Part shown: positions 7,372-18,460 of the stretch, one piece after another | Layout of the letters: each line of letters opens with the position of its first letter | Numbering within the stretch: the first letter of the stretch is position 1 | Position numbers and translations under genes: made by a program | Origin: Candidatus Thiothrix putei | GTDB taxonomy: Bacteria > Pseudomonadota > Gammaproteobacteria > Thiotrichales > Thiotrichaceae | NCBI GenBank assembly: GCA_029972225.1 | Contig: CP124756.1 | Location: 3,640,001-3,704,000 of the forward strand | Length of the DNA stretch: 64,000 nucleotides | Reading direction: 5' to 3' | Notes under the pieces: model-generated | What the model saw: the letters and a program-made list of their open reading frames with translations, nothing else | The model's database searches: none | What the model was told of the DNA's origin: nothing

Positions 7372-8160
7372 TTAAGTGTCTGGTTTAAGGTCGGCTAATT
7401 CTAGCACCTCAATACCCGCAACGGTGTAATGCCAGCGCAAATCAAAATCGTAAAGGCGCATGGCGTATACCCTATCCACCACTTGCCCGTGCTGGTAGGA
7501 AGGGCGCGGGTCTTGACGCAGAATCTGCTCAATCAATACACGCACATCGGTATGCCATTGCGCTTGTTTTTGCGCACATTGCTGGCTGGCTTGGGCAGAA
7601 AACACCACTGACTGCGGCGCAAATGGCGCATCCGGTGCAAAGCCTGCCCGCGCTTGCGGCAAGGCATCCGCATACGGCAGGTACGGTTTAATATCCAGAA
7701 TCGGCGTGCCATCCAGCAAATCTGCCCCAGCGAGTTCGAGGGTGATGTTACTCCCTGACACCTGAATCCCGCATAACTCAGCCACCGTCAGACCAATCGG
7801 GTTGGGGCGGAAGGTGGAACGGGTGGCGAATACACCCAGCCGTGCATTGCCGCCGAGACGCGGTGGGCGCACCGTGGGTTTCCAGCCTTGCGCTTGCGTC
7901 CCGTGGAAGACAAAGATTAACCAGACGTGGGAAAAACCTTCGAGTCCGCGCACCGTTTCGGGCAGATTGTACGGGGGCAAAAGCGTGAGAGTGGAACGAG
8001 CGGCTGTGACCAAACCGGGCTGGCGGGGGATGCCGAATTTTTCTTTGTAGGGGGAAGTGATGGTGCCGATGGGGTGAAGAGAAATCGCTCCATCAGAAGA
8101 AACCCCTCCCAGCCTCCCCTTATCAGGGGAGGAGGAAGAGCCAAAGTCATGGGAGGTCAT
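7372..8160 (-). CDS. trmO: tRNA (N6-threonylcarbamoyladenosine(37)-N6)-methyltransferase TrmO (YaeB/TsaA family)
   Basis: The core ISLHPIGTITSPYKEKFGIPRQPGL and the later RPNPIGLT and LLDGTPILDIKPYLPY segments are diagnostic of the TsaA/TrmO family, which methylates t6A37 in some threonine tRNAs using S-adenosylmethionine. I chose the ATG at 8160, giving 262 residues; an open frame continues upstream to 8343 but that extension overlaps the neighbouring gene and has no family similarity. The first ~26 residues (MTSHDFGSSSSPDKGRLGGV...) are not family sequence: they are encoded by a dispersed palindromic repeat (see 8113-8132). The gene overlaps the end of the upstream membrane-protein gene by 14 bases. 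Confidence 0.88.
   Translation of the reverse strand: MTSHDFGSSSSPDKGRLGGVSSDGAISLHPIGTITSPYKEKFGIPRQPGLVTAARSTLTLLPPYNLPETVRGLEGFSHVWLIFVFHGTQAQGWKPTVRPPRLGGNARLGVFATRSTFRPNPIGLTVAELCGIQVSGSNITLELAGADLLDGTPILDIKPYLPYADALPQARAGFAPDAPFAPQSVVFSAQASQQCAQKQAQWHTDVRVLIEQILRQDPRPSYQHGQVVDRVYAMRLYDFDLRWHYTVAGIEVLELADLKPDT
8113..8132. repeat. Palindromic dispersed-repeat-like element inside the 5' end of trmO
   Basis: An 8-bp perfect stem CCTCCCCT / AGGGGAGG flanks the 4-base loop TATC. The surrounding bases (about 8101-8136) match a GC-rich palindrome type scattered through many bacterial genomes, recognisable when translated as SPDKGRLGGV in one frame or PLIRGG in the others. It is in frame with trmO and adds a non-conserved N-terminal tail. 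Confidence 0.7.
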
Positions 8161-9613
8161 AGAAATACCCCGTGAAGTGATACAGCCATTGTGCGATAGG
8201 CAAGTGGGTGAAGTGCTGGAACACCTGATACATTGCCCACAACGCGGCTCCGGCCAATACAACATAGCCAAACATCCAAAAGCTGGCGACAGCATCGCGC
8301 CAGTTTTTACGCGGCTGTTCCAGAAAATCAGCCAGTGCCGCACCTTTGAAACCGTGGATGAAAAATGCCATCAACCCCAGCAGAATATGCAGCAGCGTCG
8401 GAATCAGCGTCGTCACCAGCATCAGCGTGACCATGATGCCCTTGCCCCACGGGTCATCCCGCGCCCACACCGCGTATTCCTGCCAGCCCGTTTGTGCCGG
8501 AACTCCTGATTTCACATCCACCCAGCCCGCATACAAGCTATCCAGCACGATCGCACCCGCTGGCAGCAATAGGCACAATGCCAGCATAAATAACACCGCC
8601 ACCCCGAAATCCAGCACCACATCCAGCACAATCACCCGCACCCGCGACTCTTGCGCTGTCCGCTCCAGAAAGAAACGACTCACCCACCAAGACAACCAAT
8701 CCAACAATGCATTCACCAGCGGCAACGCCAGATAGAAAAACATCCACATCAACGACGTGTTATAATTCCCATTCCAACCTTGCAATACAGCGAAAGCGGC
8801 AGCGACAGCGGCAGCGCCAGCGCCAGCGCCAGCGCCAGCGCCAGCGGCAGCGACAGCGGCAGCGACAGCGAAAGCGAAAGCGAAAGCGACAGCGCCAGCG
8901 CCAGCGCCAGCGCCAGCGCCAGCGCCAGCGCCAGCGCCAGCGCCAGCGGCAGCGACAGCGGCAGCGACAGCGGCAGCGACAGCGACAGCGAAAGCGACAG
9001 CGACAGCGCCAACCCAATAACCCCAAATCAAACTAAGCACAGCAAAACCAATACTGCCGTTAGCCCAATACAAAATTACGCCACACCCTAAGCCCATCAA
9101 CATTCGCCACACTTGGTCCGCTACATTTGATGGCAATCCCAGCCGTTGCAATTGCGCCTTACCCCACACATCGGCACGGTCGCTATTCCCTGCAAAAAAC
9201 TTGATAGCGACAAACATCACAAGGGCGAACAACACCAATCCGGGAAAGAAATAAGGGCGATAGGGAGAATCAGCAGGCAACAGTTCCTTGCCCGAAAACA
9301 GGTTCGTACCATCAAAATAGCTGTAGGTCAGGATAAAAAACAGAAAGGGATAGAGATAGGACAACAGGAAAGAAACACTAAACGCCTGCAAAGAGTCTTT
9401 GTTGCCGTAGAGCTTTTGCAAGCCACGCAGCAACCAATTCACGCCGCCCTGATACAAACGGCGGACTTTTCCATCCCGCAAGGATGCAATCAAATCTACG
9501 CGGTCATCCGCATTTTGCAGGATTTGGAAGTAAATAAAACCCAAAACGATACCCGCAACGGTCAGGATGAGCGTGATCGTGTCAATCCACTCACTGTATT
9601 CAAGCGTTGGCAT
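8147..9613 (-). CDS. Unrecognised multi-pass membrane protein with a hexanucleotide-encoded Ala/Gly/Val/Phe tract
   Basis: 488 residues; I do not recognise the family. Several hydrophobic segments are evident: near residues 10-30, 85-105, 125-142, 165-200, 290-310, 330-360 and 395-415, with two more toward the C-terminus. Residues about 202-275 are a low-complexity run of alternating Ala with Gly, Val, Phe or Ala, entirely encoded by the hexanucleotide array at 8789-9010. The start ATG follows GGGGA at good spacing. The tract is hydrophobic and placed between predicted membrane segments, so its copy number could change the length of a membrane or periplasmic segment. The gene's 3' end overlaps trmO. 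Confidence 0.7.
   Translation of the reverse strand: MPTLEYSEWIDTITLILTVAGIVLGFIYFQILQNADDRVDLIASLRDGKVRRLYQGGVNWLLRGLQKLYGNKDSLQAFSVSFLLSYLYPFLFFILTYSYFDGTNLFSGKELLPADSPYRPYFFPGLVLFALVMFVAIKFFAGNSDRADVWGKAQLQRLGLPSNVADQVWRMLMGLGCGVILYWANGSIGFAVLSLIWGYWVGAVAVAFAVAVAAAVAAAVAAAGAGAGAGAGAGAGAGAGAVAFAFAFAVAAAVAAAGAGAGAGAGAAAVAAAFAVLQGWNGNYNTSLMWMFFYLALPLVNALLDWLSWWVSRFFLERTAQESRVRVIVLDVVLDFGVAVLFMLALCLLLPAGAIVLDSLYAGWVDVKSGVPAQTGWQEYAVWARDDPWGKGIMVTLMLVTTLIPTLLHILLGLMAFFIHGFKGAALADFLEQPRKNWRDAVASFWMFGYVVLAGAALWAMYQVFQHFTHLPIAQWLYHFTGYFYDLP
8789..9010. repeat. 37-copy degenerate hexanucleotide array AGCGNN
   Basis: Reading the plus strand from 8789, every six bases begin AGCG and end in CC, GC, AC or AA, for 37 uninterrupted units (222 bp). 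The longest pure run is nine AGCGCC units at 8891-8944; blocks of alternating AGCGGC/AGCGAC flank it on both sides. On the minus strand the units are NNCGCT and encode dipeptides GA, AA, VA or FA. Because the unit is six bases, copy-number change preserves the reading frame. Confidence 0.97.
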
Positions 9614-12076: not shown

Positions 12077-12541
12077 ATGCTCAAGGTATTCTTTTCCTCA
12101 TTAACAGGGCAAATCATCAGTGCACTGGTATTTTTGAGCATCATTTCTGCCTGTAGTTTTGACGCCAGAGAACCCGCGCCGGGCATGACGTTGGCAAATA
12201 CTAGTTGGACACTGAAAACCTTGGATGGCAAACCCGTCACCACCGACAAATTACCCACGATTCAGTTTGATGACACACGCATGAATGGCTATTCCGGTTG
12301 TAACCAATTTTTCGGGAATTACACCAGCAGCAGCGATGGCATTTTCACCACTAGTGCGGTAGGTGCAACCAAAATGGCTTGCCTCGATGACAAAAATGCA
12401 TTGGAGCAACAGTTTTTTGCGCAATTGGAAAAAGCCAACAAATATGCCGTCACCCGCGAACAACTCCATCTTTTGGATCACGGGCGCAATATTTTGATGG
12501 TTTTGAATGCAGCAAAACCAGCCGCTGACAAAGCAAAATAA
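12077..12541 (+). CDS. META/HslJ-domain lipoprotein
   Basis: 154 residues. A lipoprotein signal peptide ends at the lipobox SIISAC (Cys26). The mature protein is a single META domain: ANTSWTLKTLDGKPV, then MNGYSGCNQFFGNYTSSSDGIFT and TKMACLD, with the two conserved cysteines in GCNQF and MACLD. HslJ-type META proteins are linked to stress or antibiotic resistance in the envelope, but their biochemical role is unclear. AGGAG lies 7 bases before the start. Confidence 0.85.
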   Translation: MLKVFFSSLTGQIISALVFLSIISACSFDAREPAPGMTLANTSWTLKTLDGKPVTTDKLPTIQFDDTRMNGYSGCNQFFGNYTSSSDGIFTTSAVGATKMACLDDKNALEQQFFAQLEKANKYAVTREQLHLLDHGRNILMVLNAAKPAADKAK

Positions 12542-12653: not shown

Positions 12654-13319
12654 ATGCCTAAGATCCTGTCACTACGCACCTTGCTGCATTGCGCCACACT
12701 GCTCTGTGCGCTACCAGCCACCGCCAACAATCTTGACCCGCTGAGTGCGGCTGAAATAGCACGTGCCACCCAGCGAGCTAATGCTGCCACCCCCGTCTCC
12801 ACTATCCGTAGCACCACAACCAATAACGCCAACATACCCGCGCCAGAATTGCTACTGGTCGAACGTCATCCCAACGCCAAAGGCCAAACCGCTCGCTTAG
12901 CCGATGTCTACACCTACGACTACAGCACCAATGAAACCATTATTGATGTGATTGACCTCGACACCAACCAAGTGATTTCCCGCAGACGTGAACGAAACCT
13001 GCAACTGCCGCTGACTACCAACGAATTGCAACGCGCCTCCGCCCTCATCTTTGCCGATGACGAACAACGCAGCCTATTGGATGCCGAATTCAAGCGCATT
13101 ACCGGGCAAACCTTGAGCAATCCTGCACAGCAATTGCAGGTCAAAGCTTTCGTCTTCCACGCCTCCAGCTTGCCCGAACAGCTTAATGCCGCGTCTCAGC
13201 AATGCGGCTTACAGCGTTGCGCCCAAGTGCTGCTCTACACCGCCGATTCGGTGGTATTTGAAGTCAGCCCCATCGTCAACCTGTCCGCAGGTGTCATTAC
13301 GCAAAACATCGGCTTCTAA
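12654..13319 (+). CDS. Stand-alone N-terminal (N2/N3-like) domain of a copper amine oxidase, secreted
   Basis: 221 residues with a signal peptide ending ALPATA-NN. The mature start NLDPLSAAEIARA matches the HPLDPLxxxEI start of bacterial copper amine oxidases, and LADVYTYDYSTNETIIDVIDLDTNQVISRR followed by LPLTTNELQRAS matches the N2 domain strand pattern. The last ~60 residues resemble a reduced N3 domain. There is no catalytic domain: in normal enzymes it follows in the same chain. Here two separate catalytic-domain genes follow immediately (13 bases and then 18 bases apart), so this looks like a split oxidase. Assignment rests on my memory of family motifs. Confidence 0.7.
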   Translation: MPKILSLRTLLHCATLLCALPATANNLDPLSAAEIARATQRANAATPVSTIRSTTTNNANIPAPELLLVERHPNAKGQTARLADVYTYDYSTNETIIDVIDLDTNQVISRRRERNLQLPLTTNELQRASALIFADDEQRSLLDAEFKRITGQTLSNPAQQLQVKAFVFHASSLPEQLNAASQQCGLQRCAQVLLYTADSVVFEVSPIVNLSAGVITQNIGF

Positions 13320-13331
13320 GGGAATCCCACC

Positions 13332-14492
13332 ATGCAATACCGCACTCCCCTGCTGGCACTCAGTCTGCTAATCGCTTGGCAACAACCCGCGTTTGCTGCC
13401 CCTAGCACTGCCTGCACCGGGCAAACGCTCAGCAAAACCTTCGCCTCCGGTGCAAGCTGGAATCTCTGCTGGACACCCCGCCAAGCCGAAGGCATTGTCT
13501 TATCACAAGTGACCTACAAAGCTCCCAACCACCCCGCACGGCGTGTACTGGGCGAAGCCGCGCTTTCCCAACTGGAAACCGCCCTTGACGACGGCGCGAT
13601 TGCGCCTTTATTTCTGAGCACCGAAGCCGGTTTCGGCGGCAATAATCTGCAAACCCTCAACACTGCCGATTGCAGCGGCGGCACGTTGCAAGCTGCCAGC
13701 GGGCGCAATGTATTGTGTGCCACCACCCGCGACCACGGTTATTCCTATAAATACACCACCCAACGCCAAGGACAATTGTGGGAATTGAGCAGCCATTCAC
13801 AAATCGGCTCGCGCAATTACACCGTGCGCTGGCGCTTTTACGAAAACGGCACGATTGAACCCAGCCTTGGTTTAAGCGGCGAATTACCCGTCGTTGATGC
13901 CAGTGCTGCCCAATACGGCTGGCCTGCCATGCAAAGCGGCAAAGTCGCCACGGGTTTTACCGATCATGCGCTCTGGCGGCTGGATTTCGACCTCGACACC
14001 ACCTCTACCAATGACCTAGTGGAAGAAATCAGCAGCACCCCCAGTGCGGATCGCTTACGCAAAACCAAAACCATTGCCCCGCTCAACACCGAAACCGGGC
14101 GCAGTTTTGACCCCGAAACCAAACGTTTCTGGCGCATCCGCGATGGCATTCTCACCAATGGCAGCGTTGGGCAACTTTCATACGAGCTGATACCCAACCG
14201 TTACGACCACAGCCGCGCCAATAGCAGCAATACCCCTTGGCTGGCGCATGATGTGTTTTTCACCCGCTACAACGCTTGTGAAAAATACGCTGCCAATAAC
14301 CCCACCAGCAATTGCACTGCCAACGTCAGCCAATTTGTTAACGGTGAGAGCCTCAATCAGCAAGACATTGTGGTGTGGTACAAACAAAGTTACCACCACC
14401 TTCCGCGCAGCGAAGACAGCAATCGCATTGGCACGGTGTGGAGCAGTTTCCAACTGTTGCCACGTGACTGGCATTCCACCAACCCCTTCTGA
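13332..14492 (+). CDS. Copper amine oxidase catalytic-domain paralogue lacking cofactor and copper residues (probable pseudoenzyme)
   Basis: 386 residues, signal peptide ending PAFAA. The chain follows the CuAO catalytic domain from start to end: ASWNLCWTPRQAEGIVLSQV, IGSRNYTVRWRFYENGTIE, DHALWRLDFDLD, LNQQDIVVWYKQSYHHLPRSED and LLPRDWHSTNPF. Aligned by these anchors, the cofactor-forming tyrosine is Arg161, the general-base aspartate is Ser96, and the HxH copper pair is Phe209/Asp211; only the third histidine (HLPR) remains. It should therefore not form topaquinone or bind copper normally. It sits between the N-domain gene and the better conserved paralogue, so a structural or regulatory subunit role is plausible but inferred. 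Confidence 0.75.
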   Translation: MQYRTPLLALSLLIAWQQPAFAAPSTACTGQTLSKTFASGASWNLCWTPRQAEGIVLSQVTYKAPNHPARRVLGEAALSQLETALDDGAIAPLFLSTEAGFGGNNLQTLNTADCSGGTLQAASGRNVLCATTRDHGYSYKYTTQRQGQLWELSSHSQIGSRNYTVRWRFYENGTIEPSLGLSGELPVVDASAAQYGWPAMQSGKVATGFTDHALWRLDFDLDTTSTNDLVEEISSTPSADRLRKTKTIAPLNTETGRSFDPETKRFWRIRDGILTNGSVGQLSYELIPNRYDHSRANSSNTPWLAHDVFFTRYNACEKYAANNPTSNCTANVSQFVNGESLNQQDIVVWYKQSYHHLPRSEDSNRIGTVWSSFQLLPRDWHSTNPF

Positions 14493-14509: not shown

Positions 14510-16837
14510 ATGAAACCATCAGTTTATGCGTATGCCGCCACCGTTTTGCTGGCACTCGGCAATGGTTTACCCAACGACGTACAAGCCGCCGAATTTTGCG
14601 CCGATCAGTATTACGTTGACACCACACTCCCCAATCAATCGCGCTGGGATATGTGCTGGGAACACCGCAACCGCGAAGGCATTGTGTTGCACCACATCCA
14701 TTACACCCCCAAAAACGGCACGCGCCGCATGGTGCTGTATCAAGCAGCCGTGGCACAAATTCACGTACCCTACGACGACAATGGCGCACGCTACCATGAC
14801 GTTTCTGACTATGGCTTAGGCAATAACTACATGTCTGCATTGACGGCGCAAGAATGCGTTGGCGGGCAACTGCTCAGCTATTCCGGCAAAAATGTGCTGT
14901 GCAAACAAGTCACACCCCGCGACGATGCTTACAGCGTCGACAATGACCGTTTGCAAGGCGATGCCCTCAGTTTGTTCAGCGTTTCCGCTATCGGCGCGTA
15001 CAACTACATCCCCGAATGGCGCTTTCTGGATGACGGCGCGATCGAACCCGGCATCGGTGCAACCGGCGCTCTGCAACGTTTTGGCGCGAGTAACATTGCC
15101 CAACACGGCTGGCTTTTGGAAAGCAATAAAGTCGGCATTGCCCACTTACACAATTTTTTCTGGAAATTGGACTTCGACCTCGGCGGCACCGGCAATGATG
15201 ATGCTGTCGAAGAAATCAACTACAGCCAAAATGCAGGCAAAATGACCCGCACCACCACACGCTTTACCACCGAAGCCGCCCGTTCCGTCGACCCCGCCCA
15301 ATTACGGGCATGGCGCGTCGTCGATACCACACTGAAAAATGCCAAAGGTTTGCCACTCTCCTACGAGATTCAGCTCCCCGAATCGGTGCAACGCGATGTA
15401 GGCCCCAGCACCGAACCCTTCACCCACAACGATTTCTACGTCACCAAGCAAAAAAGCTGTGAATTATTCGCCTCCCACAACCCGACGACCAACGCCTGTG
15501 CGGAAAACCTCAGTGCGTTTGTGAATGGTGAAAGCCTTAGCGGGCAAGACATTGTGGTGTGGCCTTCCACCACGTTTTACCACATGCCCCGTGCCGAAGA
15601 TGCACCGCGTATGGATACGCACTGGAGCCATATCCGTATCATTCCGCGTGACTGGCATGACAAAAACCCCCTGAGCAATAGCACCGAAACCACAGCGGAT
15701 ACCACTACGCCCCCACCACCACCTCCTCCGCCACCGGCAACTGGCACGGTGTCGAATAATGCCAGCGGTATCAGCGTCAACGGCAACCTAAACGACTGGG
15801 CAAGCCTGACATCATTTGGCGCTGACCCCGATGACGTGACCGGCACTAACAATAAACTCAACTGGCTAGAAGCATGGGCAGCCAACGATGCGGAACGTAT
15901 TTACCTTGCCTACAAAACCAAAGGCAATATCGACACCAGCGGTTTCTGGGGATATCAGGCATATCTGGATACCGACTCCAGCACCACCACAGGTTACAAA
16001 ACCGGCGCATTGGGCGCGGACTACCTAGTGGAAGGCGCAAACCTGTGGCGTTATACCGGCGACGGCACAAGCTGGAGTTGGGCATACCAAGGCAATATGA
16101 CCGCGCAAACCAGTGGCAATGCCGCAGAATTCAGCTTCCCACGTAGCTGGTTAGGCAATAGCAATGAATTACGCTTGATGTTCTGGGGCAATAACGCTGC
16201 GTTTGGTGGCGATGCCAAAGATGCCTACCCCGATGGCGCTTTCAATACCACCGCAACAACCCGCTATTTTACCTACAACATGCACACCCCCACAGGCAGT
16301 GGCACAACAGGTATCAGCAACCCTGTCAGCAACTTAACCATTAACGGCAATCTGAGCGATTGGAGCACCTTAACCTCCTTCGGACTCGATCCAACTGACG
16401 TTTCTGGGGCAAACAACCTTCTGGATTGGCAGGAAGGCTGGATGGCACACAATGCCAGCAATGTTTACCTCGCTTACCGTACTCTTAACGCCGTTGATGC
16501 CGGGCGCTTCTGGGGCTACCAAGCCTATCTGGATACCGACAACAATACCGCAACTGGCTACCAAAACGATGCACTAGGCGCTGAATACATGCTCGAAGGC
16601 CAAACGGTATGGCGCTATACCGGTGATGGTGAAAGCTGGAGCTGGTCACCGCAAGGTAGCACCACCAATGCCATCAGCGGGCAAGCGGCAGAATTCAGCT
16701 TCCCGCGTAGTTGGATCGGCAACCCCAGCAAATTGCGCCTCATGTTTAGAGGCAACAATGCCGCCTTTGGCGGGAATGCTGAAGACGTTTATCCGAATGC
16801 AACAGCTAACCCGCGCTATTTCGAGTATCGTTTCTAG
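14510..16837 (+). CDS. Secreted copper amine oxidase-like catalytic domain fused to two beta-sandwich repeats
   Basis: 775 residues with a signal peptide ending DVQAA. Residues ~28-388 match the CuAO catalytic domain: general base D97 in HDVSDYGLG, tyrosine Y164 in IGAYNY (the topaquinone position), copper ligands H212 and H214 in AHLHNFFWKLDFDL, and H358 in YHMPRAED after SGQDIVVW. The canonical TxxNY[D/E] around the tyrosine is altered to AIGAYNY, so cofactor chemistry may differ. A nine-proline linker (401-409) leads to two ~170-residue repeats (from about 421 and 600), each starting NGNLxDW and sharing FWGYQAYLDTD and AAEFSFPRSW; they look like CBM9/DOMON-type beta sandwiches. There is no N2/N3 domain in this chain. 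Confidence 0.78.
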   Translation: MKPSVYAYAATVLLALGNGLPNDVQAAEFCADQYYVDTTLPNQSRWDMCWEHRNREGIVLHHIHYTPKNGTRRMVLYQAAVAQIHVPYDDNGARYHDVSDYGLGNNYMSALTAQECVGGQLLSYSGKNVLCKQVTPRDDAYSVDNDRLQGDALSLFSVSAIGAYNYIPEWRFLDDGAIEPGIGATGALQRFGASNIAQHGWLLESNKVGIAHLHNFFWKLDFDLGGTGNDDAVEEINYSQNAGKMTRTTTRFTTEAARSVDPAQLRAWRVVDTTLKNAKGLPLSYEIQLPESVQRDVGPSTEPFTHNDFYVTKQKSCELFASHNPTTNACAENLSAFVNGESLSGQDIVVWPSTTFYHMPRAEDAPRMDTHWSHIRIIPRDWHDKNPLSNSTETTADTTTPPPPPPPPPATGTVSNNASGISVNGNLNDWASLTSFGADPDDVTGTNNKLNWLEAWAANDAERIYLAYKTKGNIDTSGFWGYQAYLDTDSSTTTGYKTGALGADYLVEGANLWRYTGDGTSWSWAYQGNMTAQTSGNAAEFSFPRSWLGNSNELRLMFWGNNAAFGGDAKDAYPDGAFNTTATTRYFTYNMHTPTGSGTTGISNPVSNLTINGNLSDWSTLTSFGLDPTDVSGANNLLDWQEGWMAHNASNVYLAYRTLNAVDAGRFWGYQAYLDTDNNTATGYQNDALGAEYMLEGQTVWRYTGDGESWSWSPQGSTTNAISGQAAEFSFPRSWIGNPSKLRLMFRGNNAAFGGNAEDVYPNATANPRYFEYRF

Positions 16838-16871: not shown

Positions 16872-17279
16872 ATGTCAACCAAATGGCTCACCCTGATACT
16901 CAGCCTGCTGTTGGCAGGCTGTTATGGCTCTCATACGACGGTTTGGGAACGCCAGCAAACCAGCAACAAAGCCTTGTATCAAGCTGAACTCACTTGCGCA
17001 ACGCTCCCGACTGTCGGGGTCTTTCAAGACTGTGTATTGCGACTGGACAACACACCAGCATTACCCAGTGATTTGCTCATTGCCGTGGATGGTGGAATGC
17101 CATCCCACGGACATGGCTTGCCCACCGCACCACAAGCCATTCCTACCGGAAAACCCGGCGAATTTCGCATCGACGGTCTGAAATACAGTATGCCGGGCGA
17201 GTGGGTGCTAGGTTTCCTGTTGCACTCTGCACTTGTACCCAGCGCACAAGACAAAATCGTGTTTTGGTTTACACTATGA
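16872..17279 (+). CDS. YtkA/FixH-like secreted lipoprotein
   Basis: 135 residues. I chose the ATG at 16872 because the upstream in-frame extension overlaps the preceding gene; this start gives a clean lipobox LLLAGC. The mature part contains GGMPSHGHGLPTAPQ and MPGEWVLGFLL, the pattern of the YtkA-like/FixH immunoglobulin-like domain that often accompanies copper or haem proteins and di-heme MauG-family enzymes. The MPSHGHG cluster could bind copper. Its stop overlaps the start of the di-heme gene (ATGA), indicating coupled translation. Confidence 0.7.
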   Translation: MSTKWLTLILSLLLAGCYGSHTTVWERQQTSNKALYQAELTCATLPTVGVFQDCVLRLDNTPALPSDLLIAVDGGMPSHGHGLPTAPQAIPTGKPGEFRIDGLKYSMPGEWVLGFLLHSALVPSAQDKIVFWFTL

Positions 17280-18460
17280 AATACCTCAGCCGGGTGGGAT
17301 ATTTACTCCTGCTCCTCATCGTATTGGGCATGGGCGGCAAACACAGCACCAGCCCCATGTGGACACCGCAAGAATACACCACACTGCAATCCCTAACGCT
17401 TGCCAACTTACCTACTGCCCGCGATTCTAGTAACCGTTTTGCACAACACCCGCAAGCCTTAGAACTAGGCAAGCAACTGTTTTTTGACCCACGTTTTAGC
17501 CGCAACGGCAGCGTATCCTGCGCCACCTGCCACCAACCCGACAAGGCTTTCAGCGATGGCAAACCCCAAGCAATAGGTTTAACCGCAGGTAAACGCAATA
17601 CCCCTTCACTGCTCGGTGTGGCGCATAACGATTGGTTTTTTTGGGATGGACGTAAAGACAGCCTCTGGTCACAAGCTTTATCCCCCTTGGAAAACCCCGC
17701 AGAACACGGCCTGACCCGACTGGAAATCGTGCGTTTACTACTGGAAGACCCGCGTTACCAGCAGCAATACCATGCTTTGTTGCCCAATGCACCTCATCTG
17801 GACTTCTTGCAACATCTCCCAATCGCTGCCTCACCTTTAGGCAATTTGGAACAATTGAAAGCATGGAAAAGTATTCCATCAACCCAACGCGTGCAAATTG
17901 ATGAAATATTTGCAAATACGGGTAAGTTCATTGCCGCTTATGTCAGTAGCTTATCCTTAGCCCCTAATCGACTCGATGTACTGAACACCTCGCAACCACC
18001 ACTCACCTCAAACGAAATCGCAGGGGCAAAACTCTTTATTGGCAAAGCTCAGTGCATTCTCTGCCATTCCGGTGCATTGCTCAGCAACCAAACCTTTCAA
18101 AATATCGGCACGGGCAAGCTCGGCACAGACAGTGGACGTGCGGCAGTACTCGACACCATTCGTACTGATCCATTCAACTGCCAAGGAACACACAGTGATG
18201 CGGATCCCCATTCCTGTACTGAACTGCAATTTTTGACCCGCAATCGCCACGCTGTGGTCGGTGCATTTAAAGTACCCAGCTTACGCAATACTGCTCGTAC
18301 TGCACCGTATTTTCATGATGGACGCATGGCGACCTTAGAACACGTTGTCGACTACTACACGCAAGCCTCACAAGCTGTAGCAAACGCTAATGATTTACCA
18401 AGAATTCAACTAAATGATACCGAAAAACAGCAACTCATCGCCTTCCTGAAAATCTTATAA
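17276..18460 (+). CDS. MauG/MbnH-family di-heme c-type peroxidase-like protein
   Basis: 394 residues from the ATG at 17276, which gives an N-terminal hydrophobic export signal. Two haem-attachment sites are visible, CATCH (82-86) and CILCH (260-264). Family motifs include ELGKQLFFDPRFSRNGSVSC, NDWFFWDGRKDSLW, and VPSLRNTARTAPYFHDGRM. This family includes bacterial cytochrome c peroxidases, MauG (which oxidises tryptophans in pre-methylamine dehydrogenase) and MbnH. It is the last gene of the operon with the CuAO-like proteins, overlapping the YtkA-like gene by four bases. Whether it reduces peroxide or matures a protein-derived cofactor cannot be told from sequence alone. Confidence 0.85.
   Translation: MKYLSRVGYLLLLLIVLGMGGKHSTSPMWTPQEYTTLQSLTLANLPTARDSSNRFAQHPQALELGKQLFFDPRFSRNGSVSCATCHQPDKAFSDGKPQAIGLTAGKRNTPSLLGVAHNDWFFWDGRKDSLWSQALSPLENPAEHGLTRLEIVRLLLEDPRYQQQYHALLPNAPHLDFLQHLPIAASPLGNLEQLKAWKSIPSTQRVQIDEIFANTGKFIAAYVSSLSLAPNRLDVLNTSQPPLTSNEIAGAKLFIGKAQCILCHSGALLSNQTFQNIGTGKLGTDSGRAAVLDTIRTDPFNCQGTHSDADPHSCTELQFLTRNRHAVVGAFKVPSLRNTARTAPYFHDGRMATLEHVVDYYTQASQAVANANDLPRIQLNDTEKQQLIAFLKIL

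Follow-up and report, generated by a model that had tools for sequence, protein, structure and literature searches.

A catalytically dead amine oxidase paralogue beside a live copy: a candidate one-site copper amine oxidase encoded by three genes

In the genome of Candidatus Thiothrix putei, the products of three adjoining genes, here called N, A and B, probably make up an exported enzyme derived from the copper amine oxidases (CuAOs), in which a catalytically dead protein, A, would replace one protomer of the ancestral homodimer beside a live protein, B. Computation gave A a predicted amine oxidase fold and revealed the pattern of its active-site losses, a conserved gene order, the co-occurrence of A with B and purifying selection; export, the A–B heterodimer and the stoichiometry of the complex are what we infer. 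The window, meaning the whole stretch of 64,000 nucleotides that was analysed, lies within a single contig of 4.28 Mb and carries five open reading frames (ORFs) in a row on the + strand, namely N, A, B, Y and C. When read by eye, the start of each of the five chains resembles an export signal. Searches of this genome with A and with PF01179 returned A and B alone and no further copper amine oxidase. The closest named relative, among the matches listed, is Thiothrix caldifontis DSM 21228, whose gene A is 97% identical.

The dead copy and its live neighbour

Gene A (13332..14492, + strand) is a still intact ORF of 386 codons, which the sequence-only reading had described as a catalytic-domain paralogue that had lost every CuAO active-site residue but one. 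Its family was confirmed by a match to the catalytic domain (D4) family PF01179 with an E-value of 1.2e-30 and 107 bits, against a cut-off of 27. It is 41% identical to its neighbour B across residues 28–385, and the anchors GIVL, WRF, LDFDL, QDIVVW and PRDWH, by which the two had been aligned, were found in both. Column alignment against B placed Arg161 (13812..13814) in the column of the Tyr that is the precursor of the cofactor TPQ, and Phe209-Thr210-Asp211 (13956..13964) where the HxH copper ligands would stand, so that Phe209 and Asp211 occupy the columns of the copper pair, in both cases as had been read. The loss of the base Asp was also borne out, but the position assigned to it, Ser96, was not: the true column, that of Asp97 in B, holds Leu95 (13614..13616) and Ser96 pairs with Val98 of B. 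The one residue left in the window is His356 (14397..14399), in the column of the third copper His.

Residue columns were taken from an alignment of 70 A rows and 80 B rows, using sequence and profile alignments, with structure comparison giving scores only. Locus L098 was left out as a repeat of L048, and near-identical loci (apparently L089 and L091) stay in the counts, so the rows are not independent. The sequence-only reading had asked whether the loss pattern holds across species, and for the copper pair and the base it does, as neither HxH ligand and no base Asp is present in any of the 70 A rows (0/70). The survival of one residue is particular to some members, with His in the His356 column of 20/70 A rows, that is, 19/32 in the window's order and 1/38 in a second order of the same class, which indicates that no copper site is maintained. 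One residue ahead of the ligand column stands His355, which does not vary among 21 rows from the window's order; a profile alignment with the Arthrobacter globiformis amine oxidase (AGAO) agrees with this placement. In the window's order, 21 of 32 A rows have Arg in the cofactor column, and among all 70 rows 7 (every one from loci L047–L049 and L089–L092) still have the Tyr; what has been lost universally is thus the HxH pair of copper ligands together with the base, and not the Tyr. Gene A has the PF01179 domain and the fold of a copper amine oxidase but is without its Tyr, the full set of three His and the base Asp.

We considered, and ruled out, that A might have acquired a new conserved active site. 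Over 40 A rows from both orders, invariance is limited to columns of W, C, E, G and P, and there is no invariant His, Asp, Lys or Tyr; three Glu are invariant in A, and in two of these columns B also has Glu, both of which argue against such a site.

An AlphaFold2 model of A, built from a 21-row alignment, had a pLDDT of 79.5 and a pTM of 0.83. The structural comparison with AGAO that had been proposed as a check matched this model to 1avk with a Z-score of 35.5 and an rmsd of 2.7 Å over 349 residues, the active-site columns being assigned by sequence alignment, and in a Foldseek search with the same model all 50 of the matches listed were amine oxidases. The model of B (first 392 residues; pLDDT 75.6) matched AGAO with a Z-score of about 31. 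That the fold-defining segments of A are kept is true broadly, with the exception of the arm I hairpin, which is longer in the six conventional oxidases compared. This hairpin, which is described as extending close to the active site of the partner subunit (PMC4497604), was shorter in all 8 A and 7 B rows compared than in the conventional rows, and its H-x-[DE] motif, present in 5/6 conventional rows, was absent from the same 8 A and 7 B rows. With so short an arm I lacking this motif, an A–B interface cannot simply copy the ancestral one, and the inter-subunit network appears, from the aligned sequences, to have been rebuilt in both A and B.

Gene B (14510..16837, + strand) matches PF01179 with an E-value of 3.5e-48 and 165 bits (cut-off 27), and encodes a paralogue of the catalytic domain in which none of the five catalytic residues is missing, followed by a linker and two C-terminal repeats. 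The predicted TPQ precursor is the Tyr of Ala163-Tyr164 (14996..15001), and His212-x-His214 (15143..15151) are by alignment the predicted copper ligands. The Tyr, the HxH pair, the third His and the base Asp are all present in 79/80 B rows; the lone exception, L158, is a 224-codon ORF, a contig-end fragment that probably derives from an A gene. The columns matched to Tyr384 and Met602 of AGAO hold Tyr and Met in 79 of the 80 rows as well. With these residues, the Tyr of B may turn into TPQ, and the protein may oxidise amine with release of H2O2.

The surroundings of this Tyr are unusual. The full cofactor consensus of CuAOs is N-Y-[DE]. In the six conventional oxidases compared the residue preceding the cofactor Tyr is Asn in every case (6/6), and B departs from this, having Ala in 57 rows, Ser in 18, Glu in 3, Thr in 1 and a gap in one of the 80; the residue following the Tyr is variable. 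The Asn is described as highly conserved in CuAOs, and its replacement in AGAO (Asn381Ala) as leaving 1/180 of the rate of TPQ formation and 1/160 of the turnover (PMC9491219). The B family would thus offer natural enzymes in which a normally fixed Asn has been replaced.

At its C-terminus, the window's B has a proline-rich linker and then two repeats of ~180 residues each (15731..16834; residues ~408–591 and ~594–775), which are 59% identical to each other and gave no Pfam match over the cut-off. A module related to these repeats was seen in a separate ORF of 1271 codons (L049, 2–3814), as well as in the very long B genes of L050 and L052.

Distribution, gene order and descent

Genes A and B occur together in 27/63 genomes of the window's order, Thiotrichales, and in 31/48 genomes of the second order, two of the latter, G835 for A and G828 for B, being counted on fragments at contig ends. 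Every matching genome has both genes, 27/27 in one order and 31/31 in the other. Within the window's genus, 9 of 16 genomes (the window's own among the 16) have A and B and the other 7 have no match, which indicates that the system is dispensable within the genus.

The order N-A-B is found at nearly every locus in the two bacterial orders, and in 68 of the 70 cases B follows A on the same strand within 1.5 kb. The two exceptions are L046, which reads N-A-Y-C and whose genome has its B on another contig (L099), and L171, with a partial B at a contig end. Among 77 stretches, several of which end at contig ends, the arrangement was N-A-B in 41, N-A-B-Y-C in 18, B alone in 6, and N-A-B-B-Y-C, A-B-N-A-B and A-B in 2 each; N-A-Y-C, B-N-A-B-Y, N-A-B-Y, B-Y-C, B with the L158 fragment and a continuation without N, A or B were seen once each. 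The stop codon of A lies within a 4-base [AGT]TGA overlap with a possible start in 31/70 A genes, the window's not being among these. At seven loci (L096, L097 and L099–L103) B has no adjoining A; every such genome has A elsewhere, and L101, which runs up to a contig end, may be the continuation of L087 in its genome. An extra B is present at L048, L050 and L052. Such loci, with B apart from A or with more than one B, suggest that B may also act alone.

Samples of 369 genomes from the class and of 398 from the phylum yielded no A–B pair in further orders, with 4 or 5 first-look candidates scored per genome and thresholds of E 1e-10 for the A profile and 1e-25 for the B profile (class) and of 1e-20 (phylum). 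The wider samples also gave single matches of conventional size (G063, G297 and G162). In a plasmid collection, 53 records matched A and 82 matched B, every one at less than 60% identity; among the matches listed (15 of the 53 and 40 of the 82), most of the named ones are primary-amine oxidases, and there is a Leisingera record among the plasmid matches. One plasmid 'hypothetical protein' (L199) was considered as a dead copy and ruled out, as it has by eye both H-x-H and Tyr in one chain. This protein (L199, 4287–5876, on a plasmid of Variovorax sp. WDL1) is a divergent single-chain amine-oxidase-like protein of 529 residues, and its gene adjoins a galactose-oxidase-like gene. A second, diverged N-A-B unit, without Y and C, was found on plasmid pTfr446 of Thiothrix fructosivorans (L034 / L043), from which it follows that the unit may be mobile.

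Selection on A was measured by the Nei-Gojobori method across ten loci from the genus, the plasmid copy L043 among them (for C, nine loci), and pairs with dS outside 0.05–1.5 were dropped. The mean dN/dS of A was 0.107 with a maximum of 0.142 (36/45 locus pairs), so the relaxed selection that had been named as a possible refutation was not seen. The means for the other genes were 0.084 for B (18/45 pairs), 0.183 for N (28/45) and 0.147 for C (7/36); A is thus under about the same constraint as the live B. The matches listed include none with a reported internal stop codon, the other sign of decay that had been named. Divergence between the orders has been faster in A, with a mean identity of 0.272 vs 0.357 for B. 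The dN/dS values, the ligands lost across all 70 A rows and the lack of reported stops together support the original suggestion that A is selected as a pseudoenzyme and is not decaying, and the loss of its active site is old and kept by selection.

A quick tree was made of 96 rows (49 A, 41 B and 6 conventional), from which the L158 fragment and any row with at least 70% identity to a retained one had been left out. The A and B rows stand apart from the conventional oxidases with a support of 100, and within them the A rows of both orders group together (SH-aLRT 85), as do the B rows of both orders (87). These groupings favor a single duplication before the orders split, followed by the losses in A. 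Two parallel duplications gave a log-likelihood 8.65 lower and were not rejected (AU p 0.348); had the duplications occurred separately in each order, the design with a dead partner would have arisen twice.

Genes N, Y and C and the surroundings of the locus

Gene N (12654..13319, + strand) encodes a stand-alone chain whose probable relatives are the N2/N3 (D2/D3) domains of CuAOs. It matches NCBIfam PRK11504 partially, with an E-value of 3.3e-07, and Pfam N2 below the cut-off at 0.047; a match to AGAO-like_N2 was obtained for 2/39 N rows (best E 0.00086), and the N profile aligned weakly with residues 46–117 of AGAO (E 0.11). Being weakly tied to these domains by sequence, N probably supplies N2/N3-like domains to the system.

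The two genes that follow B in the window were seen only in the window's order, and no match to Y or C was obtained in the 39 stretches of the second order that were searched, some of them cut by contig ends. Gene Y (16872..17279, + strand; start picked from an alignment of relatives) encodes a small YtkA-like protein, which matches Pfam PF13115 below the cut-off (E 0.0006), and overlaps gene C by 4 bases. Gene C (17276..18460, + strand) encodes a di-haem protein of the MauG/CCP family with two CxxCH motifs, matching Pfam CCP_MauG with an E-value of 9.6e-39. Its Tyr361 is invariant in 17 rows and aligns with a Tyr of the di-haem enzyme 6e1c, while the same column, which we take to be the haem ligand position, is Met in the four cytochrome c peroxidases compared. 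By this distinction gene C looks MauG/MbnH-like; it shares the two CxxCH motifs and the aligned Tyr with these di-haem enzymes but its score, ~143 bits, falls far below the curated NCBIfam cut-offs of 444 (MauG) and 363 (MbnH), that is, below equivalog level. No mau or mbn genes were noticed near gene C. As a guess, the Y-C pair of the window's order may act on N-A-B, in the maturation of B, in electron uptake or in peroxide removal, and would then hint at a connection of TPQ enzymes with di-haem proteins of the MauG type.

Partner genes were also sought in the second order, and the ten neighbors inspected at L137, L149 and L167 proved unrelated. They encode SDR, GreA, RecQ, DUF3581 and CoA transferase proteins and others, one being without a family.

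Other observations were made upstream in the window. At 12077–12541 lies the gene of a META-domain (HslJ-like) protein, which is placed ahead of N in 9/10 loci from the genus; blastp gave no match to it in the remaining genera of this locus set. On the − strand, 8147–9613 holds a membrane-protein-like ORF with a long run of Ala/Val/Gly repeats, and the opposite strand of this ORF has repetitive open frames at 8651–9091 and 8707–9036.

The proposed one-site enzyme and its alternatives

The structurally characterised CuAOs are described as homodimers of N2-N3-D4 chains (PMC3382800). Compared with bacterial CuAOs such as AGAO and ECAO of E. coli, the models of A and B have the D4 fold in common with them, and B has the Tyr, the three His and the base Asp. 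The differences are in how the parts are distributed, since the bacterial enzymes have N2, N3 and D4 in one chain and conventional oxidases have Asn before the Tyr, whereas here N is a separate gene, A and B are without N2/N3, a dead and a live D4 are on different chains, and Ala, Ser, Glu or Thr precedes the Tyr in B. We propose that the D4 gene was duplicated, that one copy, A, lost its chemistry and that the N-domains probably moved to a separate chain. In this scheme B would hold the live site, with its TPQ-capable Tyr, three copper His and base Asp, and A would most likely stand in for the second protomer, giving B a dimer interface and holding N while performing no chemistry, the result being a one-site A–B enzyme. 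That A is a subunit in a physical complex with B is suggested by gene order and co-occurrence. The linkage of the two genes, the retention of the fold in A and the disappearance of its copper ligands are most simply accounted for by an A–B heterodimer with one live site.

An arrangement of this kind has been made in the laboratory, in an engineered AGAO dimer in which one protomer is dead (Y382F) and the activity per live site is reported to be like that of the wild type (PMC4497604). This heterodimer resembles the proposed A–B pair in having one live and one dead protomer, but it differs in carrying a single substitution, whereas the natural A is encoded by a gene of its own, shares 41% identity with B in the window, and is without the HxH pair and the base. 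Its activity indicates that a one-site design is chemically feasible. In a Zn/Cu dimer of HPAO-1, by comparison, both sites are reported to be impaired (PMC3382800). Set against each other, the two results indicate that the outcome of a one-site design depends on the enzyme.

Dead paralogues with a live partner have a parallel in trypanosomes. Trypanosome AdoMetDC and PRMT1 are eukaryotic enzymes of other folds. Each is described as having a prozyme, a dead paralogue retained as the partner of the live enzyme (PMC5201418; PMC10211241). The likeness is one of working and not of membership, there being no separate N-domain chain in these pairs; by analogy with them, A may add activation to its structural role. 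Among the papers listed in searches of the open-access literature, titles and abstract beginnings gave no description of such a dead/live pair. In the sources consulted, inhibitor titrations and a small number of artificial heterodimers are the basis on which communication between CuAO sites and the purpose of dimerisation have been debated (PMC4497604, PMC3382800), and a natural dead protomer kept by selection in two orders would show what purpose the second subunit serves.

A more far-reaching version, which we think doubtful, is that in N, dead A and live B, with loss of the Asn by which TPQ is kept productive, the maturation of the cofactor or the removal of electrons has been taken over by A and, in the window's order, by the MauG-like C, making the system an amine dehydrogenase and not an oxidase that uses O2.

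It is unlikely that A is a repurposed protein with a function of its own, such as ligand binding or another chemistry, which forms no dimer with B and lies next to it only through tandem duplication. The model of A does keep the whole amine oxidase fold, His355 and Arg359 are invariant in the first 21 rows aligned from the window's order, and the Arg in the cofactor column recurs there in 21/32 rows, all of which would suit a new role; but polar invariants such as His355 and Arg359 are not common to the second order, and B is present in every genome with A and nearly always adjacent to it.

Still less probable, in our judgment, is that A serves as a scaffold or anchor for N or for the tails of B, with B acting as a homodimer of its own. 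The seven loci at which B has no adjacent A, one of which is truncated by a contig end, and the grouping of A with N, Y and C at L046, where B is on a different contig, fit such an arrangement, but A is found in every genome that has B, and a mere scaffold would perhaps have had no need to keep the D4 fold that is kept in A.

That A is simply a decaying duplicate, a relaxed pseudogene in the making, is highly improbable and was set aside on the grounds of dN/dS and conservation: its catalytic residues are gone and it has diverged more than B between the orders, but its dN/dS of ~0.1 is close to that of B, the matches listed include no reported stops, and A is kept in 58 genomes from two orders.
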